Both the position numbers and the translations under genes were made by a program. Under the pieces are notes generated by a model. The model was not told the DNA's origin and searched no databases. It saw only the letters and a list, made by a program, of their open reading frames with translations. Shown here piece by piece: positions 37,640 to 61,403 of a DNA stretch of 64,000 bases (its first letter is position 1; every line of letters begins with the position of its first letter). Source of the stretch: Fermentimonas sp. (lineage in GTDB: Bacteria; Bacteroidota; Bacteroidia; Bacteroidales; Dysgonomonadaceae); assembly GCA_015478775.1 (NCBI GenBank), contig JADMKP010000010.1, forward strand, positions 236,593-300,592, given 5' to 3'.

Positions 37640-37665
37640 ACCTTGCTTTTTGCGATGTATATTAG

Positions 37666-37911: not shown

Positions 37912-37916
37912 ATGAA

Positions 37917-37955: not shown

Positions 37956-37966
37956 CCTAATAAAAT

Positions 37967-42390: not shown

Positions 42391-42464
42391 TTTTTTTCAT
42401 GTTTATATGATTAATTTACTGCTTGGTTTATTTGAGGGTTTATACTTACAAATTTATTTATTTA

Positions 42465-43085: not shown

Positions 43086-43112
43086 TGGTAAGTCTTTATT
43101 TTGCGAAGATAA

Positions 43113-44786: not shown

Positions 44787-44811
44787 TGCAGTGTTTTTTA
44801 GTTATACAATG

Positions 44812-44819
44812 CAAAGGTA
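44812..44819 (-). promoter_or_regulatory. Candidate -7 element of the AAA+ ATPase cluster
   Basis: On the minus strand it reads TACCTTTG, matching TAnnTTTG, 26 bases upstream of the ATG at 44786. A -33 TTTG was not found at the proper distance. If used, it would transcribe the AAA+, phosphoesterase and DUF262 genes together. Confidence 0.45.
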
Positions 44820-45001
44820 AGATAAGGGTGTGCTAAATATAGGCATAACACTCTTCCATCTTTGAAATAGAGTATATTCCTAAGACATGTTTAGTCGGTA
44901 TTAGTTTCGAATCCTGAAATTATTAATGTTAGATTCCAAAAATATCAAGGGGAGAAAATTTTTCTGTTTGCTCTTTATTCTCCTGTGATCATATAGATTA
45001 T

Positions 45002-45337
45002 TTAGTCATCCCCGAAAACACTATCATAACTCATGTCATCATTATCAAAATCGTCATCATGACGATTAGGAAACATCATATCCAATTCTGTTTCTTCATC
45101 GTAGAAATCAAACTCATTTTTCAATCTTTTTATATCTATTATAATAGACTTCAATGCATTAAGTTCGTATGGATTTCCTTTGTATCTAAAATCATCTTGA
45201 TAATCAAATTGACGCACCATTTCCATAATTTCTGTTTCAAAATCTACAACCTCTTGTTCTACATCATAATTGCCTTTTTCAAGTTCATTGAGATAGTGTT
45301 CAAGTTTTACTTTTAATTTTTCAATTTCTTTTTTCAT
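45002..45337 (-). CDS. Small acidic coiled-coil protein, unknown
   Basis: 111 residues. The first 90 are predicted helical with heptad-like spacing (EIEKLKVKLEHYLNELEKGNY), ending in an Asp-rich tail (DDDFDNDDMSYDSVFGDD). No known family is recognised. It lies 119 bases after hsdR and 215 bases before the AAA+ gene, all minus strand. DNA-mimic anti-restriction proteins are similarly acidic, but there is no specific motif to support that idea. Confidence 0.55.
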   Translation of the reverse strand: MKKEIEKLKVKLEHYLNELEKGNYDVEQEVVDFETEIMEMVRQFDYQDDFRYKGNPYELNALKSIIIDIKRLKNEFDFYDEETELDMMFPNRHDDDFDNDDMSYDSVFGDD

Positions 45338-45456
45338 GATTTCGTTTTCTTTTGTTTGTATTAGTCTTTAATAACCGAGCACTTTATTTTATTACTCGTG
45401 TCATTATTTTATATGAATAATTGATAATCAAGTAATATAATTATACACCTACTAAT

Positions 45457-48400
45457 TCACAGACCATCCCTTGAAAACACCGCTGCCAATGACTCACCTT
45501 GTGCCAAAACCCTATCCGCTTCCATTCGTGCTAAATCGGGCGGATAACCATAGCGCATTAATATTTTTCTGACAGTAAGTCTTAGTTTTGCTCTCACATC
45601 ATCCCTTCTATTCCAATCTACAGTGGCATTTTTTCTTATAACATCAACAATAGTATGAATTAGTTCTTTCATTTTGTCGTCGTCTAAGAAGCGTGTAGAT
45701 TCGTTTTCGTTAAGTACACTGTAGAAAGCATATTCTTCTGGTGTAAGCCCTAGATCAACTGCTTTGTGGTCTTCTAGGCGCATCTCTTTGGCTATCTCTG
45801 TAAGTTCTGCCAATACCTGTGCGGAGTCTATTTGATTGTTGTGATAACGCTTTACAACTGCTTCCAACATTTCTGAAAACTTCTTGCCTTGTGCTATATT
45901 CTTGGTCTTACGTATTCTTACTTCGTCGTTCAATAGTTTCTTCAGAAGTTCAAAAGCAACATTTTTCTCTTGCATATTTTTTACTTCTAACAAGAACTCA
46001 TCTGAGAGTATGCTCACAGATGGAGCTTTTATACCTGCTGCTTCAAAAACATCAATGACACCCTCACTCGAAAGTGCACTATCAATAATTTGCTTAATGG
46101 CTGTTTCCACTTCAAAGTCGGACTTACCACCACTACCCGAAAACTTGTTAATGCGTGATTTTACTGCCTGAAAGAATGCTACTTCATCTTTTATTGTTTC
46201 GGCATGGGGGCTCGGTATTGACATTGCATATAACCGCGATAAGAGTGTAACCTCTTTCAAAAAACGCTCTTTTAGATTCTCATTAGCAAGAATAAAGTTT
46301 TGAGCAGCCAGTAGAACTTGAAGTTTTTGAGCAGTATCTGAATTAAAATATCTTCTATAATCGAACCCATTAAACATTTGCTCTACAACCTCGTGCTTCT
46401 CCTGCATACCTGCAATAGCCTCATTAATATCTACTATGGGGCTACCCTCGCCACCACTCTTCAAGTAAGTAGCCATAGCATTGCGCAGATCCTGTCCAAT
46501 ACCAAAGTAATCAACAATAAGTCCGCCCGGCTTATCCTTATACACCCTGTTTACCCTTGCAATAGCCTGCATAAGGTTGTGCCCTTGCATCTTTTTGTCG
46601 ATATACATTGTATGCAAGCTTGGTGCATCAAAACCTGTGAGCCACATATCCCTAACGATTACCAACTTCAACTCGTCGGTAGTATCCTTCATGCGTATAG
46701 CTAACTCTTTTCTTTGCTGCTTGGTGGTATGATGAGGTTGGAATGATTCGGGGTCGTCAGACGAACTTGTCATTACAATCTTTATCCCACCTTTGCTTAG
46801 GTCCTTACTATCCCATTCGGGTCTTAACTCAATAATAGCATTATAAAGCATAACGCATATCTTGCGAGTCATTCCCACTATCATGGCCTTGCCCTCAAAT
46901 ACATTTTGCCTAGCTTCAAAATGCATTACAATGTCTTTGGCAATATCTTTTATACGATCGGGATGCCCCACGACAGAATCAATAGTGGTTGTTCTCTTTT
47001 TTGCTCTCTCTATCTGTTCTTCTGTAGCATCGGCAATTTCGTTAATCTCATCATCCAATGCTTTAGTAGTTCTGTCGTCTAATTTAATCTTTACTAAACG
47101 AGACTCATAGCTAATGGGAACAGTTGCACCATCATCAACAGCCTGCTTAATATCATACACATCAATATAATTACCAAAAACCGCAGGTGTAGATTTGTCA
47201 TTCAGTTCAATGGGAGTACCTGTAAAGCCTATGTAAGAAGCATTTGGCAAAGCATCACGCAAATATTTAGCATTTCCGTATCTAATCTCAGAACCCTCAT
47301 CGGTTTCAACTACATGACCACTAAAACCATACTGGCTACGGTGAGCTTCATCTGCTACCACCACTATGTTTGTTCTCTCAGATAATGTATCGTACACATT
47401 ACCCTCAGTGGGTGCAAACTTCTGTATGGTAGTAAATATAACACCGCCCCCCTGCACCTTAAGCAGCTCTTTCAGATGCTCTCTACTATCTGCCTGAACA
47501 GGCGTTTGGCGTAATAAACTTACACAATTGCCAAAAGTGCCAAATAGCTGATCGTCTAAATCATTTCTATCAGTAAGCATCACAATAGTGGGATTACCCA
47601 TTTGTGGATGAGTGATAATTTGCCCGCAATAGAAAACCATTGACAATGACTTGCCCGAACCCTGAGTGTGCCATACAACACCAATCTTGCGATCGCCATC
47701 CACAGCATGGGTAGCTCTTAGTGTTTGGCTAACTGCCTTTTGCACAGAATAATATTGATGATAAGCAGCAACCTTTTTAATTTTCACTTGCGACACTAAT
47801 CCAGTCTTATCATCCTTCTTCTCCTCTTGCTCAAAAACTGTGCAGTAGCGAATTAGCTCTACCAATGTTTTTTTGTTGAGCATATATTTTGTGAGTGTTT
47901 GCAACTCTGTCATTCCCCCATACATAGTAGCAACATCAGCAGCTATGGAGAGTTGTGGCTCTTCCGCAATAGCTTGTTCTTGTTCTTTAGATGGTGCTTT
48001 CCAAGTGAGGTAGCGAGAAAATGGAGCAGATAGACTTGAAGTAGCCGCATCTATACCATCAGTTATAATGCAAAGAGAATTGTAATAAAATATTGATGGA
48101 ACAGCCTTTTTGTAATTCTGAATTTGAGTATAAGCCCTTCTGAGAGTAGCCTTTTCATCTGCAGCAGACTTTAGCTCAATAAACACCAATGGCAAACCAT
48201 TAATGAAGATAACAACATCAAACCGCTTCTCGTTGTTATTCTCCCTTACCACAAATTGATTAACTACCCAAAAGCTGTTGTTCTCCGGGTTGACTATATC
48301 CAGAAGGGTAACGTTTATACCTATTGATCTTCCCTCTTTATTAAACTCAACCGTAACACCATTTGTGAGCTTATCGTGAAAACGCTCATTGTTTTCCATT

Positions 48401-48645
48401 ATATCCTCCGTACCCAAGTTTATTACCCTTTGAAAAGCTTCGGCCAATGCAGATGCCGGCAGGGTAGGGTTTAGTTTCTTTAGCGATGCCTTGAAATGGC
48501 TTTCCAATATTACAGATGAGAAAGTTTCTCTTTGCTGATTGTTGCCAATAGGAGAAATATCTGTACCGTTGTAATATGTGTAACCCTGATTAACTAGTTG
48601 GTTAATCAAAGATTGCTCTATGGTGTGTTCGGTTAATTTGGTCAT
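45457..48645 (-). CDS. hsdR: Type I restriction enzyme, R (motor/nuclease) subunit
   Basis: 1062 residues. The N-terminal nuclease domain has FDVVIFINGLPLVFIELKSAAD near 145 (PD-(D/E)XK). The SF2 motor has Walker A VVWHTQGSGKSLSM near 315, DEAH as VVVADEAHRSQYG near 420, and SYIGFTGTPIEL. C-terminal helical regions follow. It cleaves unmodified DNA after translocation. It follows hsdS by 19 bases in the order hsdM-hsdS-hsdR. Nothing indicates inactivation. Confidence 0.95.
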   Translation of the reverse strand: MTKLTEHTIEQSLINQLVNQGYTYYNGTDISPIGNNQQRETFSSVILESHFKASLKKLNPTLPASALAEAFQRVINLGTEDIMENNERFHDKLTNGVTVEFNKEGRSIGINVTLLDIVNPENNSFWVVNQFVVRENNNEKRFDVVIFINGLPLVFIELKSAADEKATLRRAYTQIQNYKKAVPSIFYYNSLCIITDGIDAATSSLSAPFSRYLTWKAPSKEQEQAIAEEPQLSIAADVATMYGGMTELQTLTKYMLNKKTLVELIRYCTVFEQEEKKDDKTGLVSQVKIKKVAAYHQYYSVQKAVSQTLRATHAVDGDRKIGVVWHTQGSGKSLSMVFYCGQIITHPQMGNPTIVMLTDRNDLDDQLFGTFGNCVSLLRQTPVQADSREHLKELLKVQGGGVIFTTIQKFAPTEGNVYDTLSERTNIVVVADEAHRSQYGFSGHVVETDEGSEIRYGNAKYLRDALPNASYIGFTGTPIELNDKSTPAVFGNYIDVYDIKQAVDDGATVPISYESRLVKIKLDDRTTKALDDEINEIADATEEQIERAKKRTTTIDSVVGHPDRIKDIAKDIVMHFEARQNVFEGKAMIVGMTRKICVMLYNAIIELRPEWDSKDLSKGGIKIVMTSSSDDPESFQPHHTTKQQRKELAIRMKDTTDELKLVIVRDMWLTGFDAPSLHTMYIDKKMQGHNLMQAIARVNRVYKDKPGGLIVDYFGIGQDLRNAMATYLKSGGEGSPIVDINEAIAGMQEKHEVVEQMFNGFDYRRYFNSDTAQKLQVLLAAQNFILANENLKERFLKEVTLLSRLYAMSIPSPHAETIKDEVAFFQAVKSRINKFSGSGGKSDFEVETAIKQIIDSALSSEGVIDVFEAAGIKAPSVSILSDEFLLEVKNMQEKNVAFELLKKLLNDEVRIRKTKNIAQGKKFSEMLEAVVKRYHNNQIDSAQVLAELTEIAKEMRLEDHKAVDLGLTPEEYAFYSVLNENESTRFLDDDKMKELIHTIVDVIRKNATVDWNRRDDVRAKLRLTVRKILMRYGYPPDLARMEADRVLAQGESLAAVFSRDGL

Positions 48646-48664
48646 ACCGTTATTATTTTATCTG

Positions 48665-49867
48665 CTACATTACTTCACATAGTTGCTCTTGAAACTCAGT
48701 TACTCGCAGTTGTCCGCTCATGAGTTTTGGGAGGAGGGTGTCGCGGGTGGCTTGGAGGGTTTGGATTTGGAGATAATTATTATATATTTTCAAATCTAAA
48801 TTGTATAATAAATTATTTAATTCCTCTTTACAATCGTCAGTTGGAATTACAACTTCAATATTGGAAAAGGATGCTTTATTAATAGACCCAAAAACTGTAC
48901 CTTCAGACTCAAATAAATCAAAAACAGGCTTTAATGATTTTAGTTTGTACAAACAATACGATTTGTAATTGCTACTAACCGCAGCTAAGCCTCTACCAAT
49001 ACAACATTTATCTAAAGCAACATTTATATCACCGACTGGAGCTCTAACACTTACTAAGACATCAAACTTGTTAGCCATTCTCTTTGGTTCAGTTGTATAT
49101 AGTCTAATCTGAGGAAATCGTTCTGAAAATTCAGCTCTCCCTTGAAAAAAGATAGAACCATTTTTTTCAGTATTATATGATGTCCCTTTCGGAGATTGTC
49201 CCATAATAATATCAAACTCCTTTCCCAATTTCCCAACTCTCCACCCCTCAGGCAATTCATCCCCAACTTGATATTTACCAAACCACTCTTTAAATATTGT
49301 TTGTGCTATGGTTTCTAAGGTTTCGTTTTGTGCTTGTAGTAGTTCTATTTTATCATCGAAGGAGGTGAGAATGGAGGCTATGGCTTTTTGTTCGGGAAGT
49401 GGGGGGATATTTATATTAATAATATCAAATGTCTTTGTTGTTATTGTGTCAAAGACTGCTCCATAAACGTTTCTTCTTATCAACTTTAAACTATACTTTA
49501 TCAAGTAAAAAAGAAAATTAATATCAGATACATTTTCAACTTCCCTTATACCATAACATGATTGGTTGAATGCCATTTCATTTTTCAGTTGTGCCATTAC
49601 TCCAACAGTACCCCTTGCAGATATAATTATATCACCAATGTTTAGTAATTTAGTAGAACTATTCTTTAATCCCAACTCAGTGATGGACTTTTCTGCACAG
49701 CTTACCCATCTATTTTCATTATTAAAGTCTACTACAGAAAGCCATGGGATATCACCGTTCCAATATTCACTTACAGAAGTTTTTGGTGTTCCGCCTCCAA
49801 TTAAATTTATTACCTCTCCCAAAGTCGTCTCCACCCATCCCTTCGGCAATCCATTCTCCTCAATCAT
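48665..49867 (-). CDS. hsdS: Type I restriction enzyme, S (specificity) subunit
   Basis: 400 residues with two target recognition domains and two conserved helical spacers. The first TRD is about 8-160 (LPKGWVETTLGEVINLIGGGTP) with spacer IPPLPEQKAIASILTSFDDKIELLQAQNETLE; the second begins LPEGWRVGKLGKEFDIIMGQSP. It determines the bipartite DNA target of the complex. It overlaps hsdM by four bases (ATGA). No second hsdS fragment or recombinase for shuffling was found nearby. Confidence 0.94.
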   Translation of the reverse strand: MIEENGLPKGWVETTLGEVINLIGGGTPKTSVSEYWNGDIPWLSVVDFNNENRWVSCAEKSITELGLKNSSTKLLNIGDIIISARGTVGVMAQLKNEMAFNQSCYGIREVENVSDINFLFYLIKYSLKLIRRNVYGAVFDTITTKTFDIININIPPLPEQKAIASILTSFDDKIELLQAQNETLETIAQTIFKEWFGKYQVGDELPEGWRVGKLGKEFDIIMGQSPKGTSYNTEKNGSIFFQGRAEFSERFPQIRLYTTEPKRMANKFDVLVSVRAPVGDINVALDKCCIGRGLAAVSSNYKSYCLYKLKSLKPVFDLFESEGTVFGSINKASFSNIEVVIPTDDCKEELNNLLYNLDLKIYNNYLQIQTLQATRDTLLPKLMSGQLRVTEFQEQLCEVM

Positions 49868-51375
49868 AACTCAATTCCAATTTTAGCCAATTGATTAACA
49901 ATCTCTTGGTTCAACTCCTTTTCTTTTTCCATCTGTTTTTTTAAAGTGGCAGTCAGTTCAGCCATTTTTTCTTCAAATGGTATGCCATCGTCTTCTTCAT
50001 CTTCAATGCCCACATAACGACCAGGTGTTAAAACATAATCGTGTTTCAATATTTTTTCTATTGCAGCAGATTTGCAGAAGCCTTTCACGTTTTCGTAATT
50101 TTCGCCTTTGCGCCAGTTGTGGTAGGTGTTGCGTATTTTTGCAATGTCTTCATCAGATAAGTCGCGATGCACACGGTCTTTCATATAGCCCATTTCTGAA
50201 GCATCTATAAAGAGTACTTCTTTGCTATGGTTGCTTTTTTCTCTTCGTAAGAACCATATACAAGCCGGTATGCCGGTGTTGTAAAATAGTTGTTTGGGAA
50301 GGGCTACAATACATTCAACTAAATCATCTTCTACTAATCTTCGGCGAATATCACCTTCGCCCGATGTGTTTGAGCTGAGCGAGCCATTTGATAAAACAGT
50401 TGCCATTACTCCTTTTGGTGCAAGATGGTATAGCATATGGAGTATCCATCCGTAGTTGGCATTGCCATTGGGTGGTGTGCCGTAATCTTTCCAGCGTGCA
50501 TCTTCTTGCAATATATCTATTCCCCAATCTTTTTGATTGAAGGGTGGGTTTGCCAAAATGAAGTCGGCTTTGAGATCGGGGTGTGCATCTTTTAAGAATG
50601 AGCCTTCGGTGTTCCACAATACAAACTTTGAGTTGATATTGCGAATGGCAAGGTTCATTTTAGAGAGTTTCCATGTGGTTTGGTTGCTTTCTTGTCCATA
50701 CACTGTGATGTCTCTGATGTTTCCGCTATGTTCGGTTACAAACTTCTCGCTCATTACAAACATACCGCCACTACCGCTTGCGGGGTCGTATACTCTGCCT
50801 TTGTAGGGTTCTATCATCTCTACCATTAGTTTTACAATGGCTTTGGGGGTATAAAACTGTCCTCCTTTTTTTCCTTCGGCATTGGCAAATTCACCTAAGA
50901 AATATTCATATACTCTACCAAATAGGTCTTTGGAGTTTTCGTTCTCTACTTGCAGATCGGTATTTGAGATAAGGTCTATAAGTTCGCCCAAAGATTTCTT
51001 GTCTAAATTTGCTTTGCCATATACCTGTGGCAATACGTTTTTGAGGTCTTTGTTCTCTTTTTCTATTGCCTCCATTGCTTCGTCGAGGGTTTGCCCTATG
51101 TTAGGCAATTTAGCCTGAGCATGGATGTGGCTCCATCTGGATATTTGGGGTACAAAGAAAACATTTTCTGCAATGTATTCGTCTCTATCTTCAGGATCGC
51201 TCCATTCATCTGCTTCGAGTTTATGGTAAAGCTCTGTAAATGATTCTGATATGTATTTTAAGAATACTAGTCCTAATACTATGTGTTTATACTCTGCAGC
51301 ATCTATGTTTTTCCTTAATTTGTCGGCTGCCTTAAACAGTTTTTGTTCGAAATTGGTGTTATCTTTTTTGGCCAT
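49864..51375 (-). CDS. hsdM: Type I restriction enzyme, M (methyltransferase) subunit
   Basis: 503 residues. The N-terminal HsdM domain is followed by the N6-adenine methyltransferase core: SAM-binding VYDPASGSGGMFVMSEKF near 192 and catalytic ILANPPFNQKDWG near 280. GQFYTPKAIVKLM precedes it, as in the family. With HsdS it protects host DNA by methylating adenines. It is first in hsdM-hsdS-hsdR; the second GH92 gene ends 135 bases upstream on the same strand. Confidence 0.95.
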   Translation of the reverse strand: MAKKDNTNFEQKLFKAADKLRKNIDAAEYKHIVLGLVFLKYISESFTELYHKLEADEWSDPEDRDEYIAENVFFVPQISRWSHIHAQAKLPNIGQTLDEAMEAIEKENKDLKNVLPQVYGKANLDKKSLGELIDLISNTDLQVENENSKDLFGRVYEYFLGEFANAEGKKGGQFYTPKAIVKLMVEMIEPYKGRVYDPASGSGGMFVMSEKFVTEHSGNIRDITVYGQESNQTTWKLSKMNLAIRNINSKFVLWNTEGSFLKDAHPDLKADFILANPPFNQKDWGIDILQEDARWKDYGTPPNGNANYGWILHMLYHLAPKGVMATVLSNGSLSSNTSGEGDIRRRLVEDDLVECIVALPKQLFYNTGIPACIWFLRREKSNHSKEVLFIDASEMGYMKDRVHRDLSDEDIAKIRNTYHNWRKGENYENVKGFCKSAAIEKILKHDYVLTPGRYVGIEDEEDDGIPFEEKMAELTATLKKQMEKEKELNQEIVNQLAKIGIEL

Positions 51376-51496
51376 TTATGTGTTAGTTGTGTGTTATGCG
51401 TTAATTTAACTACTAAAGTAGACAATTATTGTTATATCTACCAGAAAGCGAGTGAAACACATACTCGAAATAAGAAATTAATACGTGACAGGCAAA

Positions 51497-51539
51497 CCAA
51501 TACAAAAATATTATTGTTGATTTGTGCAATATTTAACCT
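51497..51539. repeat. 43-bp repeat, copy 1 (overlaps the end of the second GH92 gene)
   Basis: These 43 bases recur at 56953-56995 in the same orientation with two mismatches. The stop codon and last nine codons of the GH92 gene lie in this copy. The repeats bracket the GH92 gene and two flavoprotein genes. Confidence 0.8.
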
Positions 51540-53841
51540 CATCTGTCATTTCTAATACAAGTTTACCTCCTTCGGTAATTTGCTTATGTGTGATACGATA
51601 ATCTTCAATAGGCTGATTATTATACATAACTTTATTAACAAAAACATTTGACATACTGTTATTAAGAGCTTCAATTATAAATGTTTCTCCGGTATAGAAA
51701 TCAGGATTAAGTTTAATGGTAACTTTATCGAATAATGGACTTCCAATTTGATATTCTGGATTCTTCTCCGTACCTCCATTCATTTGGAATAATCCAATTT
51801 TCATTAAGATAGCTAAACTTCCCATTAATCCTTGATCTTCATCACCATTGTACCCTGTAGCAGGCGACAATCCACTATAAGCTTTATTTACAACACTTCT
51901 TGTCCAAAACTGAGCAAGATCATGACGTCCTAACTGGTTAAATATTTGGGCAGTTTGCATAGAAGGTTGATTTCCATAATTAATTGGAATACGACTATAC
52001 TCAGGATGCAATTCTTTGTCATGTGCATTACCTGAAGTGAATCCAAGTATAGCAGCGGCTTCAAACTGTTCATTCAATTTTTGAACTGCTTTTTCCTTTC
52101 CACCCATTAATTCCGCAAGGCCAGAAATATCGTGAGGTACAAACCATGTCGATTGAGCTCCGTTTGACTCGATAAATCCAGTCTGATATTTATAAGGATC
52201 AAAGTCAGCTAACCATTTACCATTAATGTCTCTTGGACGCATCCATGTGGATTCATTATCATATACATTTTTGTAGTTTTTTGAGCGATTAAGGAAATAA
52301 GTGTAATCCTCTTCATATCCAAGTTTTTTCGCTAACTGGGCAAGTGTCCAATCTTGGTAAGCGTACTCCATGGTTAAACTTGCACCTTCTTGATGAAACC
52401 CAAAATTTCCTTCTGGAAGTGGATAAGGTACATAACCGTTTTCTATATAATAATTCAGTCCTCCCCCAAGATCCGTGTCGTGTTCATATCCTGCTTTTCC
52501 CATTATTCCTCCGGGCATATGATTCTTTTTTAAGGCTGCATATATTTCCGAAATATTTTCAGTAACAATACCTTTCTGAATAGCACTTACAATAAAAGGA
52601 GTGGATGAAGCTCCTGTCATAACATACGTATAGTTTCCGCCAGAAGGACCACGAGGAATCAAGCCTCCATCAGCATAATATTGCATCATAGATTGAACAA
52701 ACTCCTTGTGAATTTCGGGATAAACTAAACCCCACAAAGTATTAATTGTCCATTGAGCTCCCCAAAAAGAATCAGAGTTATAGTGATTAAAAACAGGTTT
52801 TTCGTTTTCATTAAGTGGTAATTGTCCTATTCTAAAATTATCACCAGTATAATCTGGATAAGCCCCATTGGCATCACTTATTATTCTACGTCCTTGTAAT
52901 GCGTGCCATAGATCAGTATAAAAACGTCTTTGTTGTTGCTCAGTTCCGCCTTCAATCTGAATTCTATTTAAATACGAATTCCACTCTTCACGAGACTCAG
53001 CAACAACTTCTTCGAAACTCCAATGTGACAACTCTGTCTTAATATTGTTGATAGCATTTTCAACAGATGTATATGAAATTCCTGCTTTTAAAAGTACCTC
53101 GCTTGTATTCTCCTCAAAAACTAAAAGATAGTTACCCGTTGCTTCATCCCTTTGCACATCTTTAATCTGCACATCTGAATCGATATGAAAAAATAACTTT
53201 GTTGATTTTGGACGACGGCGAGTAGGGGCATTTAATAATTCTCCCGAAACGCTAGTGCTTGTTGTTTTAATTAAAACCCCATCCTTGTTTAAACTGGGTC
53301 CTAGCATAGTATTTAAATTAAGAAGCAAAGCGGGAGATCCATCTCCTTCAAATTTATATTTGTGAAAACCAACACGTTTAGTACTCGTAATTTCAGCTTT
53401 GATAGTATATCTTTTGAGTTCAAGATATTGGTAACCAGGACTCACTTTCTCTGTTTCGTGACTAAAAGGAGAATAAAAGTCAGTGAAAATATTTTCACTG
53501 TTATCATTTGAAATAGTAACTGGCATTACAGAAAGTCCAGAAAGTTGCCAAGCGTGTATATGACTAAATCCTTTGATTGTGTCAGTTTTGTAACGATAAC
53601 CACTTCCCCAAGCTCCATCAAGCTGATTGTCTGGGCTCAAATTAACCATTCCGAAAGGACGACATGCTGATGAAAAAAAGAACCAACGTGAATTTTCAGT
53701 GTCCAAATGAGGATAAACCAAATCTACAGGATTTGATTTAGAGGTTTTATATGCATTACTACTTTCGCATGATACGAAAAGAATTAAGATAATAAATAAT
53801 TTAAGTGCTGTTTTCAGTGATTTTTTATTTGCTAATATCAA
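51511..53841 (-). CDS. Glycoside hydrolase family 92, lipoprotein
   Basis: 776 residues with a lipoprotein signal (lipobox LFVSC). GH92 features: VYPHLDTENSRWFFFSSACRPFGMVNLSPD near 42, SHIHAWQLSG near 95, SDSFWGAQWTIN near 360, and the C-terminal GYNGDEDQGLMGSLAILMKIGLFQM. It is distant from the GH92 enzyme at 18073. The start is TTG (53841-53839), as no ATG precedes the signal peptide in frame, and an upstream ATG hits a stop after four codons. It sits between defence genes and flavoproteins, and its last codons lie in a repeat. Confidence 0.85.
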   Translation of the reverse strand: MILANKKSLKTALKLFIILILFVSCESSNAYKTSKSNPVDLVYPHLDTENSRWFFFSSACRPFGMVNLSPDNQLDGAWGSGYRYKTDTIKGFSHIHAWQLSGLSVMPVTISNDNSENIFTDFYSPFSHETEKVSPGYQYLELKRYTIKAEITSTKRVGFHKYKFEGDGSPALLLNLNTMLGPSLNKDGVLIKTTSTSVSGELLNAPTRRRPKSTKLFFHIDSDVQIKDVQRDEATGNYLLVFEENTSEVLLKAGISYTSVENAINNIKTELSHWSFEEVVAESREEWNSYLNRIQIEGGTEQQQRRFYTDLWHALQGRRIISDANGAYPDYTGDNFRIGQLPLNENEKPVFNHYNSDSFWGAQWTINTLWGLVYPEIHKEFVQSMMQYYADGGLIPRGPSGGNYTYVMTGASSTPFIVSAIQKGIVTENISEIYAALKKNHMPGGIMGKAGYEHDTDLGGGLNYYIENGYVPYPLPEGNFGFHQEGASLTMEYAYQDWTLAQLAKKLGYEEDYTYFLNRSKNYKNVYDNESTWMRPRDINGKWLADFDPYKYQTGFIESNGAQSTWFVPHDISGLAELMGGKEKAVQKLNEQFEAAAILGFTSGNAHDKELHPEYSRIPINYGNQPSMQTAQIFNQLGRHDLAQFWTRSVVNKAYSGLSPATGYNGDEDQGLMGSLAILMKIGLFQMNGGTEKNPEYQIGSPLFDKVTIKLNPDFYTGETFIIEALNNSMSNVFVNKVMYNNQPIEDYRITHKQITEGGKLVLEMTDEVKYCTNQQ

Positions 53842-54077
53842 TTTTTTTCTATTTTTTGCTCATCATATATAACAATAGTTCGTTTTTATTATCTTTTTAA
53901 GCTCTGAAACTAAGGATTTTAAAGATGATTAACTACACTGGCCAAACCAAAGATAATAACTTTTCTATAAACAAACCCTCCCTTCAAGCTATTTTTGGAA
54001 TCCCGGGTGTTGTAATTTATGATTCCAATATAAGTGAACATTTATTGAAAGAATAAACGGATATGTAATAGATATAT

Positions 54078-54085
54078 TACTTTTG
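54078..54085 (+). promoter_or_regulatory. -7 element of the BaiN/HI0933-type flavoprotein gene
   Basis: TACTTTTG matches TAnnTTTG and lies 15 bases before the ATG at 54101. The equivalent position in the truncated copy (33.8 kb) keeps a match, TAATTTTG. An in-frame TTG at 54083 falls inside this element and is therefore not the start. Confidence 0.6.
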
Positions 54086-54100
54086 CATAAAATTTGTAAT

Positions 54101-55327
54101 ATGACAATTGCCATAATCGGTGGAGGTGCGGCAGGTTTTTTCTTGGCAATAAATCTAAAGCGATTAGCTCCAAATATCGATGTAACCATATTTGAGAAAA
54201 GTGCAAAAGTTTTAACTAAAGTAGCTATATCAGGAGGTGGAAGATGTAATCTCACAAATTCATTTGCTGAGATAAAGAAATTGAATCAAGCATATCCCCG
54301 TGGTGATAAATTATTAAAACGTGCATTCCGTCTATTCGACCACAGAGATACATACAAATGGTTTGAAGATGCAGGTGTGCCCTTGGTTACTCAAGACGAC
54401 CAATGTGTTTTTCCCTATTCGCAAGACTCGAATCAAATCGTTGTAACATTTATTAAGCTCGCCCGAGAGTTGGGTATATCGGTAAAGACTTTGCATAGAC
54501 TGACTTCGATAACCAGTGGCGAAAGATACACCCTCACATTTAATGCCGATACTAGGTGCACCTTTGATGCGGTAGCTATAACAACAGGAGGAAGTCCTAA
54601 AGCAGAAGGATTGAGCTATTTAGAGGCTTTAGGTCATAAAATAATTTTGCCCGTACCATCTTTATTCACCTTCAATATCCCCAGTGACTCGATTAGAGAG
54701 CTGATGGGAGTTGTTGCAGAGAACGCAATGGTTTCCCTCGAAGGCACAAATCTTAAAGCATCAGGAGCACTTCTGATAACTCATTGGGGAATGAGTGGGC
54801 CGGTTATATTAAAATTATCATCCTATGGTGCAAGATTGATAAACGAAAAACAGTATCGCTTCAACATACTTGTGAGTTGGATAAATGAGGTGAACTGCGA
54901 TAAAATAGCCGAGTACATAAACTCAATCGTCCGAGAAAATCCTCAAAAGAAAGTTGCTAATGTATGTCCCTATAATATTACATCAAGGTTGTGGCTTCAC
55001 ATACTTAAAAAAGCCGAAATCCCAACAGATCGTAAGTGGGTAGATCTTGGAAAAAGGGCTATCAACAAGATAATAAATCTTCTCAGTAACGATCAGTACA
55101 CAGTCCATGGTAAGGGCTCATTTAAAGATGAATTTGTAACCTGTGGAGGTGTGAGCTTAGAGTGTATAGAATTTAACACGATGGAGAGTAAAAACTGCCC
55201 AAACCTCTATTTCGCAGGTGAGATATTAGATATTGATGCCATAACGGGAGGATTCAACCTTCAGGCAGCGTGGACAACAGCCTACGTTGCTGCGGTGGCA
55301 ATAAGCCAACCTTTAATAAATAAATAA
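54101..55327 (+). CDS. NAD(P)/FAD-dependent oxidoreductase, BaiN/HI0933 (YhiN) family
   Basis: 408 residues. FAD binding by MTIAIIGGGAAGFFLAINLKR at the start, then VAISGGGRCNLTNS near 44 and a C-terminal FAD contact FAGEILDIDAITGGFNLQAAW, all hallmarks of this family. The substrate is usually unknown. The ATG at 54101 is preferred over an in-frame TTG at 54083. It overlaps the next flavoprotein gene by one base (TAATG). Its first 35 codons were copied to 33.7 kb. Confidence 0.9.
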   Translation: MTIAIIGGGAAGFFLAINLKRLAPNIDVTIFEKSAKVLTKVAISGGGRCNLTNSFAEIKKLNQAYPRGDKLLKRAFRLFDHRDTYKWFEDAGVPLVTQDDQCVFPYSQDSNQIVVTFIKLARELGISVKTLHRLTSITSGERYTLTFNADTRCTFDAVAITTGGSPKAEGLSYLEALGHKIILPVPSLFTFNIPSDSIRELMGVVAENAMVSLEGTNLKASGALLITHWGMSGPVILKLSSYGARLINEKQYRFNILVSWINEVNCDKIAEYINSIVRENPQKKVANVCPYNITSRLWLHILKKAEIPTDRKWVDLGKRAINKIINLLSNDQYTVHGKGSFKDEFVTCGGVSLECIEFNTMESKNCPNLYFAGEILDIDAITGGFNLQAAWTTAYVAAVAISQPLINK

Positions 55328-56901
55328 TGCAAAAAGAAATTATTATAAAAGTAAGTCCCAAAGAAGCATCAAGCACCGAAAGCATTAAGCAGATAGTGGC
55401 CAGTCAATTAGACATACAGATTTCCGAAATAAAAGCTGTTAGAATAGTAAAGCGATCAATAGATGCTCGACAACGTAAAGTTTTCGTTAATTTAACACTT
55501 AATATATATATAGAGGAGAGTGAGCCAGAAACTAAGTTTGAAGAAATAGAATATAAAAATATATCCGAAGCACCCCAAGCGATAGTTGTTGGTTGCGGAC
55601 CTGCTGGCTTATTCGCCGCACTGCGGCTAATCGAGTTAGGAATACGTCCGATAGTAGTAGAACGAGGTAAGAATGTTAGAGATAGAAAAAAGGATACAGC
55701 ACAAGTAAGTAAAAACAATGTAGTAAATCCAGAATCAAATTATTGTTTTGGAGAAGGAGGAGCAGGAGCATACTCTGACGGAAAGCTATATACTCGAAGT
55801 AAAAAACGAGGAAATGTAGATAAAATATTAAGAATATTTTGTCAATATGGAGCCTCTACAGATATTTTGATTGACGCACATCCACACATCGGTACCGATA
55901 AATTACCAGGTATCATAGAAAGGATGAGAATGCAAATAGAAGAATCGGGAGGAGAAGTACATTTTGAGACCCGTATGGATAAGTTGATAATAAAAAACAA
56001 TAGTGTAGAGGGCATAGAAACTAATACAGGAAAAATATTTGTAGGAAAAGTTATACTCGCTACCGGGCATTCTGCACGAGATGTTTACTCTATGCTCCAC
56101 GAGCAAAAAATAAAATTAGAAGCAAAAGGATTTGCAATAGGTGTTCGGGTCGAACATTCATCTCACTTAATTGACCAAATTCAATATCACAACCCAGAAG
56201 GACGAGGAGAATATCTACCTGCAGCAGAATATAATTTTGTGGTTCAATCAGCAGGCAGAGGAGTATATTCGTTCTGTATGTGTCCTGGAGGAGTTATAGT
56301 TCCGATAGCGAGTAACGAAAAACAAGTAGTAGTGAATGGGATGTCTGCAAGCAACAGAGGCTCTAAATGGTCTAACTCAGGAATAGTAGTTGAAATTCAT
56401 CCAGAGGATTTGCCCGATTATGCTAAATATGAGGAATTGTGCATGATGAAATTTCAAGAAGATATAGAAGAACTTACTTGGGTAAAGGGAGGAAAAACAC
56501 AAACAGCTCCAGCACAACGCTTAGTAGATTTTGTTAAAAACAAAAAAAGTGATGATCTTCCCAATAGTTCTTATTCTGCAGGTATTGTATCCTCTGCACT
56601 ACACGAATGGCTGCCAGAATTTATCCGTACCCGTTTACAAGATGCTTTTCTACAAATAGGAAAACGCTATAAGGGTTTTTTGACAAATGATGCTATAATC
56701 ATAGCAATAGAGAGTCGAACCTCTTCTCCTGTACGCATCACCCGTGATAGGGAGAGTTTGGAGCACTTTGAAATAAGAGGTTTGTACCCGTGTGGCGAAG
56801 GTGCTGGATATGCAGGAGGAATAGTATCTGCGGCAATGGATGGAGAACGCTGCGCTGAGGCACTGGTTGAGAGATGTTCTATGGTTTCCTCCTGCCTGTA
56901 A
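55327..56901 (+). CDS. FAD-dependent dehydrogenase, COG2509 type
   Basis: 524 residues. A short N-terminal domain (about 1-80) precedes the Rossmann motif AIVVGCGPAGLFAALRLIELG near 90. Other family points are VVERGKNVRDRKKDTAQ, NYCFGEGGAGAYSDGKLYTR near 140, SFCMCPGGVIVPIAS near 318, and PCGEGAGYAGGIVSAAMDG at the end. Proteins of this group are conserved but largely uncharacterised. It is translationally coupled to the BaiN/HI0933-type gene and followed by a palindrome and the second 43-bp repeat. Confidence 0.88.
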   Translation: MQKEIIIKVSPKEASSTESIKQIVASQLDIQISEIKAVRIVKRSIDARQRKVFVNLTLNIYIEESEPETKFEEIEYKNISEAPQAIVVGCGPAGLFAALRLIELGIRPIVVERGKNVRDRKKDTAQVSKNNVVNPESNYCFGEGGAGAYSDGKLYTRSKKRGNVDKILRIFCQYGASTDILIDAHPHIGTDKLPGIIERMRMQIEESGGEVHFETRMDKLIIKNNSVEGIETNTGKIFVGKVILATGHSARDVYSMLHEQKIKLEAKGFAIGVRVEHSSHLIDQIQYHNPEGRGEYLPAAEYNFVVQSAGRGVYSFCMCPGGVIVPIASNEKQVVVNGMSASNRGSKWSNSGIVVEIHPEDLPDYAKYEELCMMKFQEDIEELTWVKGGKTQTAPAQRLVDFVKNKKSDDLPNSSYSAGIVSSALHEWLPEFIRTRLQDAFLQIGKRYKGFLTNDAIIIAIESRTSSPVRITRDRESLEHFEIRGLYPCGEGAGYAGGIVSAAMDGERCAEALVERCSMVSSCL

Positions 56902-56927
56902 AGCAACAATTTACTTTGAGCTATAAT

Positions 56928-56943
56928 TCGTGATTAATCACGA
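56928..56943. promoter_or_regulatory. Perfect 16-bp palindrome
   Basis: TCGTGATTAATCACGA is fully symmetric and lies 27 bases after the COG2509-type gene and 10 bases before the second 43-bp repeat. It could be an operator for the genes downstream or a weak terminator; there is no T-run. Confidence 0.35.
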
Positions 56944-56952
56944 TCAAGCATA

Positions 56953-56995
56953 CCAACACAAAAATATTATTGTTGATTTGTGCAATAATTAACCT
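56953..56995. repeat. 43-bp repeat, copy 2 (intergenic)
   Basis: Matches 51497-51539 in direct orientation with two differences. Here the sequence is noncoding and lies upstream of the 157-residue protein gene. Confidence 0.8.
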
Positions 56996-57058
56996 TTTTG
57001 GGGTATAATACTATGTCTAATGAATTAGATGATATTTGTTAAACAATTAAAAATAGTA

Positions 57059-57502
57059 ATGAAGAATAAAGCTCAAATAATTGAATGGGAAAAATTAGAT
57101 AATCGGGAAAAGCGTTTAATGCAGTATGTTGCGGATTATCATTTGTTTAAAAGAATTTTTATTGAGAACATATCTAATGAAGATATGGTAAAAATATTTA
57201 TTGAGTATGTAGATAGTATGTGGGGCGAAGATTTTCATGGTAAATATTTACAGGTTACGGTAATCCCTGAGGGTATGGAGTGCGATCATATGTTTGTTGA
57301 CGATTATTATGAAGGTATTAATTTATTTCCAATAACACGTATTGAGGCAACTAAGAGACTGGCATATTTGCAATCACATTTAAATGATACTAAAAATTAC
57401 TTTACATTTAATATTGCTTGTTTTGGAGTTGAGTGGTGTGTAGTTCATGATACGGTTTTACTTAAATTAGAAAGATTGAATACTAAACTAATTGATTTGT
57501 AA
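57059..57502 (+). CDS. Hypothetical protein
   Basis: 147 residues from the ATG at 57059; an in-frame ATG at 57029 would add ten hydrophobic-basic residues that look like noncoding leader. The sequence is mixed helix and strand with conserved-looking aromatic points (WGEDFHGKYLQVTVIPEGMECDHMFVDDYYEGINLFPITRIEATKRL) and NIACFGVEWCVVHD near the end. No family is recognised. It precedes the YqiA-like esterase by 23 bases and may be co-transcribed. Confidence 0.55.
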   Translation: MKNKAQIIEWEKLDNREKRLMQYVADYHLFKRIFIENISNEDMVKIFIEYVDSMWGEDFHGKYLQVTVIPEGMECDHMFVDDYYEGINLFPITRIEATKRLAYLQSHLNDTKNYFTFNIACFGVEWCVVHDTVLLKLERLNTKLIDL

Positions 57503-57525
57503 TATATTCATAAAATTAAATTGAA

Positions 57526-58194
57526 ATGATAATGAAAAAAGATAAGATAAAAATATTATATGTGCATGGATTAAATTCCAATGGTGGTTCACGAACAGCA
57601 ACAGAACTTAAGAGGCTTTTGAAAGATGAAGCAATAGTATACTCACCTGACTTTTCGAATGAACTTGAAAGTTTCAGTGAAATGAAAAAGAATATAGATA
57701 AGGCATGGGAATTTATTAAATCGGAGAGAATAGATCTTGTGATTGGATCATCTATGGGGGGATTTGTTGCATCTAAAATATGTGGTGTTACTAAAATATT
57801 AATTAATCCTTGCCTTCGTCCATCTGAACAATTACCAAGATCCAAAAATATTAGCAATGCTGAACTGAAAAAATATGCTGAATTTGAAAGAGAACGTGAA
57901 ATTTTATTAGATATGGAGGATAGGTTAATAACTTATGGGTTATTCTCAAGTAATGATGAATTGTTTTCATATAAAGATTTATTTGATAAATTATTTTTAG
58001 CTGCTCATTCTTATACCATAAATGATGCTCATCGCATATCTACCACTAATATAAAGAATGAACTATTGAAATTAATAGAATCAAGTATTGCCAACACTGA
58101 AGAGCTTTCAAAAGGATTTGAGAAATTTGAGGAGACTATGATTGATGATGATGATAATGATATGATTATACAAAAAGACATTGAAATTACATAA
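57526..58194 (+). CDS. YqiA/UPF0227-like alpha/beta hydrolase
   Basis: 222 residues. ILYVHGLNSNGGSRTATELKRLL at the start and LVIGSSMGGFVASKICG near 83, the nucleophile elbow GSSMGG, match the YqiA/YcfP esterase group. The last 40 residues are acidic and helical (DDDDND) and are extra to the usual length. No acyl substrate is implied. It follows the 157-codon gene by 23 bases and stands before the nuclease-like cluster. Confidence 0.75.
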   Translation: MIMKKDKIKILYVHGLNSNGGSRTATELKRLLKDEAIVYSPDFSNELESFSEMKKNIDKAWEFIKSERIDLVIGSSMGGFVASKICGVTKILINPCLRPSEQLPRSKNISNAELKKYAEFEREREILLDMEDRLITYGLFSSNDELFSYKDLFDKLFLAAHSYTINDAHRISTTNIKNELLKLIESSIANTEELSKGFEKFEETMIDDDDNDMIIQKDIEIT

Positions 58195-58256
58195 ATAACA
58201 CATTGTGTTTAAATAATTTATACATATCTTTGGAGCTATCAAATAAATGCAAATAA

Positions 58257-58382
58257 TTGAAAACTCATTACTCCGAAAACAAATACATAACCTTTAGAAA
58301 ATGGATACGCTACCTTCAGAAAAAAGAATTCTCAGATGAAGATATAATTGAAAAATACATTAATATACAAAATACTTTATAA
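58257..58382 (+). pseudogene. Possible gene remnant
   Basis: A 41-codon open frame begins with TTG and has coding-like content (HYSENKYITFRKWIRYLQ, then KKEFSDEDIIEKY), but no good start. It ends 29 bases before the nuclease-like gene. It may be the tail of a lost gene or a very small real one. Confidence 0.3.
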
Positions 58383-58411
58383 ACAATTTAAATTTTAACA
58401 ACCTGGAGAAA

Positions 58412-59386
58412 GTGAAAAAAATTTACCGAGGAATCGACAGTGATTTTGCAGAAGCATTTAAGAAAAGTGAACTCTACAAACTTTATGAAGAACATAAAGA
58501 TGAGTTATTTATTGGAGTACGAAACAACTATTTGAATTTGTACTATAACTCCGATAGTATTGCTAAAGTAACATATACACGAGAAGAAATAAAATGTGAA
58601 ATTGACAAATACTATTTAGAAGGAAAACATTACAGCAGTGCAGATAAAGGAAAAAGGGCACGAGTTGAACCAATTGAGATTTATAATCATTATGAAGTAA
58701 TTAAAAAGAATAGCGATAAGAAAAAATCAGATGAAAAAAAAGCTCAATCTAAGTTATTCCTTTTGAATAATCAAAATATTGATTCTAATTGGTTTTGTGT
58801 TGATATAGAATATATAAGACAGTATAATGATCGAGAGGAAAAAAATATAGCTGGATTTAATGCTCGTTTTGATATTATCGCATTATCGAAAGAAAAACCA
58901 CATAGAGTAGCTCTTATAGAATTAAAATATGGTAAAAAAGCATTGGGTGGGGAAAGTGGTATATACAAGCATGTATCAGATTTTGATAAATTTCAGAAAA
59001 CGGGGTTGTTTGAAAGTCATTTAAAATATGAAATAATAGAAATAGTCAAAAGTAAGAATGACTTAAATGTCACCGGTTTCTCAGAACTACCTCAAGTTAA
59101 TGAATTGCTAGCTCCAGAATTCTATTTTATAACTTTAAACAATAATACAGAGTCTATAAGGGGTACTACACCGAAACAATCAATGGCTTCATATCTATTT
59201 AATGAAAAGGGTCGATGGGGATCTAAGGGGTTATCTACTAAGCGGGTTGAACCAGATTTTGGTGATGTGACTAAAAAAAGTAATAAGTTTCATGCGACGT
59301 TTTTATTTTCAAATTCCACAAACGAAAACTTATCAATTAAAGATATAATTGATGGTGAGTATGATGAGAAAATTTATCCCGAATGA
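58412..59386 (+). CDS. PD-(D/E)XK nuclease-like protein, unknown family
   Basis: 324 residues with a GTG start (58412) preceded by GGAG. The core FDIIALSKEKPHRVALIELK places Asp154, Glu170 and Lys172 in the D-x15-ExK arrangement of PD-(D/E)XK nucleases, with Glu133 (VDIEYIRQY) upstream and SGIYKHVSDFDKF after it. The N-terminal 110 residues are charged and the C-terminal 120 mixed, unassigned. It overlaps the RNase J-like gene by four bases (ATGA), so the two are coupled. The role in defence or repair is inferred. Confidence 0.6.
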   Translation: MKKIYRGIDSDFAEAFKKSELYKLYEEHKDELFIGVRNNYLNLYYNSDSIAKVTYTREEIKCEIDKYYLEGKHYSSADKGKRARVEPIEIYNHYEVIKKNSDKKKSDEKKAQSKLFLLNNQNIDSNWFCVDIEYIRQYNDREEKNIAGFNARFDIIALSKEKPHRVALIELKYGKKALGGESGIYKHVSDFDKFQKTGLFESHLKYEIIEIVKSKNDLNVTGFSELPQVNELLAPEFYFITLNNNTESIRGTTPKQSMASYLFNEKGRWGSKGLSTKRVEPDFGDVTKKSNKFHATFLFSNSTNENLSIKDIIDGEYDEKIYPE

Positions 59387-60666
59387 AAATAACCATTCAT
59401 AGAGGTACAAATCAGATAGGTGGTTGCATCACTGAGATTGAGAGCGACGGATATAAAGTCTTTATCGATTTTGGTGAACAGTTATCTGGTAGTGAGAGTG
59501 AAAAGCTACCACTAATTGAAGGATTGACGAAGGGCGATGTTTCAAAAAGTATACTGCTGATTACGCATTACCATGGTGATCATGTTGGGAAAATTAGTGA
59601 AACGATTTCTGATTTACCTATTTACATGGGGAAGACTGCACTTGAGATTTTTAAGCATTTCGAAACGAGAATGTCTTACAATCGCGATACAAACATTGCC
59701 GATAAGCATCACAAGAATCTTGAGCGTGTTGTAAATGTTAGGACGTTTGAAGCATTGCAGTTAATAAAGTTTGGCAGTATTACAATAACACCTCTGTTTG
59801 TAGACCATTCGGCATTTGATGCATATATGTTTGTTATTGAGTCAAATGGTAAGAGGGTGTTGCATACTGGCGATTTCAGGGGACACGGATTCAGAAGTAA
59901 GGGTTTACTTCCTACATTGAGAACATATGCTACTGATATCGATTATTTGATTACAGAAGGGACTAATATAAACAGTCCTAATGTAACATTGGTGTCAGAA
60001 TTAGATTTGAAGCAGAATTTTACAGAGCAGTTTCGAAAACAGAAGTACAATTTTGTATTTGTATCATCTACCAATATTGACAGGATATTTGGGTTGTATC
60101 ACGCTGCTAAAACGGCAAAGCGTTGTTTTGTTTGTGATGACTACCAAGGAGGAATGCTTGAGATTGTATCGAATAACCAAGAGAAGTATAGTTCTTTTTA
60201 TGACATTGATTATGAGAATATTGTTACCCCAGCTGGTCGTATTATTGCTTTAAATTGTAGGAACGGAGAGGATTTTTCTTTTAAAGGAAAGCTGAAACCT
60301 TATTTAGAACGACATGGTTTTTGTATGCTCATTCGTACCAACGAAGCATATAAGCCTCTTTTGAATGAGTATATGAAGATGGATGAAACAAAAATATACT
60401 ATTCTATGTGGGATGGTTATTTAGATAATAGCAGGTCAGCATTTAATGAAAAGTTATATAACTTTTTTGAACCCTATGATATTGAACATATACACACAAG
60501 CGGGCATACTGACATAAAAACATTGAAGGAGGTTTTCGAAACAGTAAGGCCCAAAAGAGGTATTATCCCTATTCACACAGAGAATCCAGAAAGATTCCTA
60601 GCGATTTTCGAGAACCAAACTATCATCTTGTTAAAAGATGGAGAAACTTTAGATTGTGTAAATTAA
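59383..60666 (+). CDS. MBL-fold/beta-CASP ribonuclease J-like protein
   Basis: 427 residues. The metal site is in LLITHYHGDHVGKI near 60 (HxHxDH), with HTGDFRGHG near 165 and the C-terminal IHTSGHTDIKTLKEVFETVRPKRGIIPIHTEN typical of RNase J and related beta-CASP nucleases. It lacks the large RNase J C-terminal domain, so it is shorter (RNase J about 550). It begins inside the end of the PD-(D/E)XK-like gene. The metallophosphoesterase gene follows 5 bases later. It probably acts on RNA or DNA ends. Confidence 0.8.
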   Translation: MKITIHRGTNQIGGCITEIESDGYKVFIDFGEQLSGSESEKLPLIEGLTKGDVSKSILLITHYHGDHVGKISETISDLPIYMGKTALEIFKHFETRMSYNRDTNIADKHHKNLERVVNVRTFEALQLIKFGSITITPLFVDHSAFDAYMFVIESNGKRVLHTGDFRGHGFRSKGLLPTLRTYATDIDYLITEGTNINSPNVTLVSELDLKQNFTEQFRKQKYNFVFVSSTNIDRIFGLYHAAKTAKRCFVCDDYQGGMLEIVSNNQEKYSSFYDIDYENIVTPAGRIIALNCRNGEDFSFKGKLKPYLERHGFCMLIRTNEAYKPLLNEYMKMDETKIYYSMWDGYLDNSRSAFNEKLYNFFEPYDIEHIHTSGHTDIKTLKEVFETVRPKRGIIPIHTENPERFLAIFENQTIILLKDGETLDCVN

Positions 60667-60671
60667 TAGTT

Positions 60672-61283
60672 ATGATAATTCTACATATATCAGACACACA
60701 CGGGAAGCATCATCAATTAAAAGATTTACCTCCTGCCGATATTATCATTCATTCAGGTGATGGAACAGAAGATGGTGAAAATGAAGAGATGTTGGAATTT
60801 TTAAATTGGTTTTTCGCCTTGGATTATAAGTACAAAATTTTTGTGGCGGGTAATCATGATATTAGTTTAGACGGTGGAAAATTAGAGAACATACCAGAGC
60901 ATTGTTATTATTTACATCATTCAGGAGTAGAAATTGAAGGTGTAAAATTCTGGGGCGTACCTCACTTTTTCTTTGATGAGTTAGATGGAAGCACAGAATT
61001 GGTATTGAATCCGATTGCTGTTGATACTGATATATTAATTAGTCATCGCCCCCCTCTATATATTCTGGACTTTGAGGATGGCAACCACTTTGGGTGCTAT
61101 ACTTTATATAGATCTGTTATGAATATCTGCCCTCGCTACCATCTTTTTGGTCATGTACATGCAAGTTATGGTATAGAGAAGTCGCGACATACAACTTTTA
61201 TTAATGCCTCACTATTTTGTAATGATGTGATTAAGAATAAGCCCGTATTAATTCAATTTGAGAATGATAAAATAGAAAAATAA
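60672..61283 (+). CDS. Calcineurin-like metallophosphoesterase (MPPED-type), second copy
   Basis: 203 residues from the ATG at 60672; the TTG at 60654 within the preceding gene is rejected. Motifs LHISDTHGKH, IHSGDGT, VAGNHDISL, ILISHRPPLY and LFGHVHASYG are all there. It is about half identical to the copy at 42465-43085 and shares small features such as NWFFALDYKYKI against EWFGNLDYKYKI. It is the last gene of the nuclease-like/RNase J-like cluster. Substrate unknown. Confidence 0.85.
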   Translation: MIILHISDTHGKHHQLKDLPPADIIIHSGDGTEDGENEEMLEFLNWFFALDYKYKIFVAGNHDISLDGGKLENIPEHCYYLHHSGVEIEGVKFWGVPHFFFDELDGSTELVLNPIAVDTDILISHRPPLYILDFEDGNHFGCYTLYRSVMNICPRYHLFGHVHASYGIEKSRHTTFINASLFCNDVIKNKPVLIQFENDKIEK

Positions 61284-61341
61284 AAAACTTAAGTTAAACC
61301 TTTAAAATATCCCAAAGTTTAAAAAAAACAAGAAATTTTAT

Positions 61342-61349
61342 TAACTTTG
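61342..61349 (+). promoter_or_regulatory. -7 element of the pnt operon
   Basis: TAACTTTG matches TAnnTTTG, 54 bases before the ATG at 61404. Confidence 0.45.
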
Positions 61350-61403
61350 AGTTTTATTATTTAGATCAACAAAAACACATTTATAACTTATAAGTTTATT
61401 ATT

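Follow-up and report, generated by a model that had tools for sequence, protein, structure and literature searches.

The locus and its genes

The window analysed here is a 64,000-nucleotide stretch of the genome of Fermentimonas sp. (Dysgonomonadaceae; GenBank assembly GCA_015478775.1, contig JADMKP010000010.1, positions 236,593 to 300,592). Our subject is a pair of nuclease-like genes in it, A and B, which are followed by a phosphoesterase gene, C. These are three open reading frames (ORFs), all on the + strand and, as the initial annotation had stated, with a 4-base overlap and a 5-base gap between them:

58412..59386, + strand: gene A, PD-(D/E)XK nuclease-like protein of 324 aa, in which an N-terminal domain (approximately residues 5-106) precedes the nuclease core at the C-terminal end
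59383..60666, + strand: gene B, RNase J-type metallo-beta-lactamase (MBL)/beta-CASP protein (427 aa)
60672..61283, + strand: gene C, an optional module, calcineurin-like metallophosphoesterase of PADLOC family PDC-S10 (203 aa)

Gene A starts at a GTG codon with GGAG upstream, and its stop overlaps the start of B in the four bases ATGA. The TAA stop of B ends at 60666, five bases before the ATG of C at 60672; an alternative upstream start for C, TTG at 60654, was given by the mechanical ORF call.

Gene A encodes a predicted PD-(D/E)XK nuclease

Gene A had been described as carrying a D-x15-ExK core, and the predicted structure of its product (predicted local distance difference test (pLDDT) 85.1, predicted template-modelling score (pTM) 0.85) supports a core of the PD-(D/E)XK type. 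Helix 107-121, strands 127-135, 152-159 and 164-173, helix 184-197 and strand 232-242 of the model follow the alpha-beta-beta-beta-alpha-beta order that this fold requires. Structural matches were led by Upx (Z 8.6, root-mean-square deviation (rmsd) 3.1, 129 residues aligned), followed by NucS (Z 7.5, rmsd 3.0, 105 aligned), EndoMS (7.3, 3.1, 109), HamA of Hachiman (7.0, 4.9, 180), Card1 (6.6, 3.1, 118), Can2 (6.2, 3.8, 131), FokI (6.0, 4.2, 139), LmuA (5.9, 4.1, 123), McrC (5.8, 4.2, 126) and SduA (5.4, 4.6, 146). McrC was also the best Foldseek match (E 2e-3, probability 0.96). About 44 of the 50 listed structural matches are proteins that we take to be of PD-(D/E)XK type, the exceptions being YdhG/DUF1801 rows, SRP-receptor rows and two unknowns.

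The D-x15-ExK core corresponds to D154, E170 and K172, encoded with the preceding conserved glutamate at the following positions:

58733..58735, + strand: codon of E108, in the helix that leads into the core; conserved in at least 90% of 62 diverse A-type partners of B homologues
58871..58873, + strand: codon of the catalytic D154, without variation in the 62 partners
58919..58927, + strand: codons of E170-L-K172, the (D/E)XK motif, placed by alignment and predicted structure

D154 and E170 are the sole invariant columns among the 62 partners, with K172 and E108 conserved in at least 90%; in nine closer sequences (window, relative and plasmids) D154, E170 and K172 are all invariant. The model gives A a PD-(D/E)XK fold with conserved catalytic residues; A is a nuclease-like protein for which membership in the superfamily would imply metal-dependent cleavage of nucleic acid.

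Assignment of A to a named family was tried and rejected, as no match of the window protein in Pfam, NCBIfam, PADLOC or PHROG went below E 0.029. The 62 partners matched six Pfam families with one member each (best E 6.5e-4), and in PADLOC at E 0.01 gave weak matches to PDC-S11, PDC-S18, CARF_PDDEXK and HEC-02B alone; the NCBIfam and PHROGs scans covered the window proteins. Nothing convincing was found for A among PDB sequences, and an initial scan of genome contigs with A alone gave no confirmed relative. By tblastn, A had no match in plasmids at E 0.01 or in phages at E 0.1.

Gene B encodes an RNase J-type beta-CASP protein

The product of B (427 aa), previously noted as a short MBL/beta-CASP enzyme, proved to be of RNase J type by Pfam, NCBIfam and profile matches. 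Pfam assigns it MBL and RMMBL domains, and the motifs HxHxDH, DHS, GDxR, HTSGH and PIHT are intact. A profile of ten B relatives matched solved structures of EF2904 (1.5e-36), RNase J (5.4e-28) and Cas14 (2.8e-14). NCBIfam RNase J models match B at E about 1e-12 to 1e-13, and the score against TIGR00649 is 48.1 bits, far below the cut-off of 400 for RNase J proper. No PADLOC model matched B, and no B relative was found in phages at E 1e-10.

Conservation of the active site is complete across the copies compared. The metal ligands H62, H64, D66, H67, H142 and D164 are present in 96 of 96 copies, as are the beta-CASP residues H371, S373, G374 and H375 and the last-motif H398. Invariance of the catalytic residues in 96 copies speaks for selection as an enzyme, and we conclude from the sequences that B belongs to the RNase J-type beta-CASP proteins, its metal site and motifs being complete. 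The last motif of beta-CASP enzymes carries His in the RNA type and Val in the DNA type. By this rule, RNA is the likelier substrate of B. Seven loci (L029, L030, L031, L034, L036, L037 and L067) encode homologues of about 618 aa, which exceed the window protein by some 190 residues.

A and B recur as a pair

A and B are co-encoded as a conserved pair in distant bacteria, often with a 4-base overlap. The species-genome collection was scanned with the B profile, yielding at least 590 matching stretches, at least 507 of them confirmed; the best 80 of 507 entered a census, to which plasmids, viral contigs and the genomes searched contributed further loci. B was present in 103 of the 105 loci, and after exclusion of six (L001, L098, L002, L016, L104 and L105: repeats of the window or L004, or distant long proteins) 97 were analysed. 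A motif pattern for the partner was positive in 87 loci, from which four were removed by hand (L006, L053, L059 and L091, with the motif in another kind of gene), leaving 83 with a recognised PD-(D/E)XK-type partner, 72 upstream and 11 downstream of B; A can therefore stand on either side. L041 and L056 were counted by eye because the partner is cut at the contig end. Five loci were uninformative, four for contig ends (L020, L071, L091 and L100) and one for a truncated B (L103). Of the 92 informative loci, 85 have a PD-(D/E)XK-like partner of B, in most cases immediately upstream; as near-identical loci (for example, L046/L047) were retained, these are not independent events. The remaining seven (L006, L044, L053, L059, L060, L092 and L095) have no recognisable A.

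The pairing stands out from the local background. Of the ORFs of 150-460 aa that directly precede B on the same strand, 71 of 78 contain the motif pattern, against 32 of 247 ORFs at least four genes away; in some loci (for example, L004 and L028) the pattern matched outside the true core. An exact overlap of -4 joins 41 of 69 directly upstream partners to B, whereas among other pairs on the same strand it is seen in 24 of 382. One single-linkage cluster (E < 1e-4) unites the window A with 64 of the 83 partners, and profile comparison joins further subfamilies, with six small ones left unlinked.

Another genus of the family has an A homologue, 64% identical to that of the window, immediately before its B homologue. 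Across seven plasmid loci, identity to the window proteins is 14-20% for A and 27-36% for B, which indicates that A changes faster; this would fit a protein facing a changing target. Pair records span Bacteroidota, Clostridia and Proteobacteria, together with metagenome-assembled genomes titled Treponema, Ignavibacteria, Synergistaceae and Dojkabacteria, titles that may hide contaminating contigs. The spread of B is patchy (8 of 395 genomes at E 1e-30, two of them distant partial matches). The viral-contig collection contained B relatives in L094-L097, three of the four with a recognised partner.

Because the census loci had been selected by B, the pairing test was repeated starting from A. 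A search of the order matched 7 of 247 genomes, and B was adjacent in all seven. In the phylum, 8 of 395 genomes matched. B accompanied A in G000, G542, G548 (with one gene between) and G358 (a weak match at a contig end). A clear A homologue in G435 (L139) carries an in-frame stop and has no B within the retrieved stretch; the other three without B (G322, G244 and G264) match weakly (E about 1e-6 to 6e-6) and look like other nucleases. With order and phylum combined and the window genome counted once, B stands beside A in 10 of 14 genomes, or in 9 of 10 when E 1e-10 or better is required in the phylum scan only.

Gene C is an optional third module

The product of C matches PADLOC PDC-S10 at E 1.1e-65 over nearly its full length (residues 6-205 against 9-219 of 223), a name that we take to denote a candidate single-gene defence phosphoesterase. 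In 16 of 97 loci C follows B either immediately or after one intervening gene, and 14 of these have a recognised A. Starting instead from C, 10 of 247 genomes of the order carry it. Among nine C-family loci besides that of the window, A-B-C was found within the retrieved stretches only in L131, and L127 is cut near a contig end. Other neighbours of C include WYL-like regulators (L127, L132, L134 and L135), exonuclease-like genes (L133 and L134), a methylase-like cluster (L128, by reading) and, elsewhere, other genes. As C stands mostly in other gene settings and seldom after A-B, it is an optional module; an obligate third gene is ruled out by the 16 of 97 loci and by the search from C. In a Cereibacter plasmid, the place of C is taken by a metallophosphoesterase weakly related to PDC-S10 (E 5e-4).

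The proposal of a three-gene cassette whose families co-occur in other genomes was therefore sustained in part. The A-B pair is recurrent (85 of 92 loci from B and 10 of 14 genomes from A), whereas the three genes do not form a fixed unit: C follows in 16 of 97 loci, and A, B and C stand together in 14 of 97.

The pair lies on an accessory island and on mobile DNA

The genes upstream of the cassette are an ORF at 57029-57502 and one at 57526-58194 (UPF0227, Pfam E 6e-11), and an AlaDh/PNT gene (Pfam) follows at 61404. Just upstream of A, 58260-58379 forms an open stretch of 40 codons that has no obvious start and may represent the end of a gene now lost; no relative of it was found among the loci examined. 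A small hydrolase ORF adjoining the C gene of L132 (6044-6652) resembles, by eye, the UPF0227-type hydrolase at 57526-58194.

An accessory setting had been proposed for the cassette, and comparison of its flanks with relatives supports it. A genus scan found PNT at ten places outside the window; eight were retrieved and one was too short, leaving seven informative relatives. The distance from the gene at 27921-28910, which we take to be aldolase-like, to PNT is 32.5 kb in the window versus 0.04 to 3.2 kb in six of the seven; the seventh has other genes there. As the flanks lie close together in relatives, the cassette is placed within an accessory island of about 32 kb, which includes the following:

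28911..61403, no strand: accessory island with the cassette; flanking genes 0.04-3.2 kb apart in six of seven informative relatives
36704..37639, + strand: WYL-domain regulator of the island, not adjoining A-B (PF13280 at G000:C10:273686-273892)
42465..43085, - strand: paralogue of C (phmmer E 4.1e-64), in a separate cluster with WYL, DUF262-like and AAA genes

The paralogy of C to the phosphoesterase of the other cluster had likewise been noted correctly. The island also holds two relatives of DUF262-annotated genes and an AAA-type gene, and genes at 45457-51375 read, by eye and with no library scan, as a type I restriction-modification set. A second cluster can accordingly be drawn at 36704-51375, comprising the WYL regulator, the two DUF262-like genes, the PDC-S10-type phosphoesterase, the AAA-type gene and the apparent restriction-modification set; relatives of its WYL, AAA and phosphoesterase genes are grouped in L127. 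The aldolase-like/PNT junction (28911-61403) looks like an insertion hotspot, as relatives hold different genes or almost nothing there.

In other genomes, A-B occurs near an integrase and genes reading as mobilisation functions (L004), near a Tn3 transposase (L012) and, on a Rhizobium plasmid, near methylase and nuclease genes (L009). WYL-like regulators (one single-linkage cluster) lie no more than seven genes from B in 20 of 97 loci. Among the 59 Bacteroidota-type loci, sorted by record title, they are near 11 against 0.18 expected from 62 WYL matches in about 207 Mb, with observed and background counts obtained by different detection methods. PMC9122601 describes WYL regulators of the BrxR family as often co-localising with phage-defence systems. 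Among 138 sampled neighbours, the commonest PADLOC matches listed at E 1e-10 (25 of 295 families) were WYL (9), a Cas3c-named model (7), IetA (3) and PDC-S01, S05, S23 and S26 (2 each), and Pfam gave WYL (9), WCX (7) and RtcB, Aldo_ket_red, Phage_integrase, AAA, AAA_14 and HTH_11 (3 each); these are raw counts without a matched control, with ordinary metabolic genes among the neighbours.

Proposed function and rival explanations

We consider it reasonably probable that A-B is a two-gene, two-nuclease conflict module, most likely serving anti-phage or anti-plasmid defence, carried on an island and on mobile DNA. The genomic context favours a putative defence role over RNA processing. The products of A and B would act together: A may recognise, or be triggered by, foreign or damaged nucleic acid and make the first cut, after which B, judging from its H-T-S-G-H ... 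P-I-H signature and the last-motif His of the RNA type, would degrade or trim the exposed RNA. Where present, C would serve as an accessory phosphoesterase and may process phosphorylated ends or a nucleotide. More tentatively, and with a probability that we place below even, A-B may represent an undescribed, widespread type of defence that combines a conserved beta-CASP enzyme resembling RNase J with an interchangeable, fast-evolving PD-(D/E)XK nuclease; the partner would set the target, the RNase J-like enzyme would destroy RNA and the phosphoesterase would be an optional third module.

The pair could instead be an RNA repair or quality-control unit acting on tRNA or mRNA that the host or an invader has damaged: A and B would trim the broken ends, which would then be healed and sealed by C and a neighbouring RtcB. 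Besides the RNase J-like character of B, this draws on an RtcB-type family (a phmmer cluster) that 5 of 97 loci carry within seven genes of B, with Pfam confirming RtcB in 3 of 138 neighbours. Four RtcB occur among the 59 Bacteroidota-type loci versus about 0.06 expected from density (22 of 60 genomes of the order have any RtcB). However, RtcB was not seen within seven genes of B in 92 of 97 loci, the genome of the window has no RtcB match, and PD-(D/E)XK enzymes mostly cut DNA. RtcB also lies near WYL genes at places where A-B was not sought, so its link may be to WYL islands. We regard this explanation as unlikely. RtcB and WYL matches were observed within about 2 kb of each other in G126:C90, G124:C88 and G128:C13 and about 7 kb apart in G127:C4, a proximity that suggests WYL-linked RNA-repair loci in those genomes of the order.

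Less probable again is a toxin-antitoxin or addiction pair that maintains plasmids and islands, one nuclease being toxic and the other gene restraining it or clearing its products. The two-gene layout with its 4-base overlap in 41 of 69 upstream pairs, the plasmid locations and the patchy spread (B as above; A in 7 of 247 genomes) are consistent with such a pair. Yet both families are enzyme sized with complete catalytic sites, and B is no small antitoxin; moreover, 7 of the 92 informative loci have B but no recognisable A, and the one clear A with an internal stop (L139) is without B in its retrieved stretch. Least probable of all is a module for DNA repair or the processing of DNA ends, by analogy with the ligase-associated cluster of MBL exonuclease, metallophosphoesterase, helicase and ligase. 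In its favour, MBL and metallophosphoesterase genes occur together in 16 of 97 loci and the fold of A resembles the repair nucleases NucS and EndoMS. Against it, the window B has no listed ligase-associated exonuclease match, the window C matches PdeM at no better than E 0.14, the listed neighbour clusters contain no recurrent helicase or ligase family other than a UvrD-like one in two loci, and B carries the RNase-type last-motif His.

Whatever its function, the recurrent two-nuclease pair has conserved active sites. As it comprises two small genes, the proposed defence role can be tested directly.

Comparison with known systems

A and B both belong to well-known superfamilies. Their pairing was named by none of the family libraries searched, nor was it described in the literature searched for the pair and its parts or for RNA repair, the Lhr cluster and WYL regulators, in which subscription papers are thinly covered. 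The predicted nuclease fold of A resembles those of Upx, HamA (Hachiman), SduA (Shedu), LmuA (Lamassu) and McrC. Unlike in Hachiman, Shedu, Lamassu and McrBC, the recurrent neighbour of A is B and not a helicase, SMC or GTPase. We take PADLOC to contain models for all four, and those so named matched neither the window A nor the 62 partners at E 0.01.

MBL beside metallophosphoesterase genes recalls the ligase-associated cluster, which consists of an MBL exonuclease, the metallophosphoesterase PdeM, a helicase and a ligase. Here, however, B and C are of other families: the NCBIfam matches listed for B include no ligase-associated exonuclease model, and C scores 11.6 bits against 150 for PdeM (E 0.14). 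The scanned window genes beside the cassette contain no helicase or ligase. What sets C apart from PADLOC PDC-S10 is that, in the loci analysed, it can follow A-B in third place.

With RNase J and EF2904 (PDB 2az4), the best structure-profile matches, B has its catalytic motifs in common, whereas at 427 aa it falls far below the model cut-offs and is paired with a PD-(D/E)XK protein. PMC12669027 presents Cas14 as the beta-CASP effector of type VII CRISPR-Cas, and B (profile E 2.8e-14) resembles it as a predicted beta-CASP RNase in a putative defence setting; the partner of B, in contrast, is a PD-(D/E)XK protein. Array-like direct repeats were absent from 52000-64000, and no Cas proteins were found among the window proteins scanned against the libraries. 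If A-B is a defence system, it would bring RNA decay of the RNase J type together with PD-(D/E)XK cutting in immunity and would parallel the type VII CRISPR beta-CASP effector, though without a neighbouring CRISPR array.
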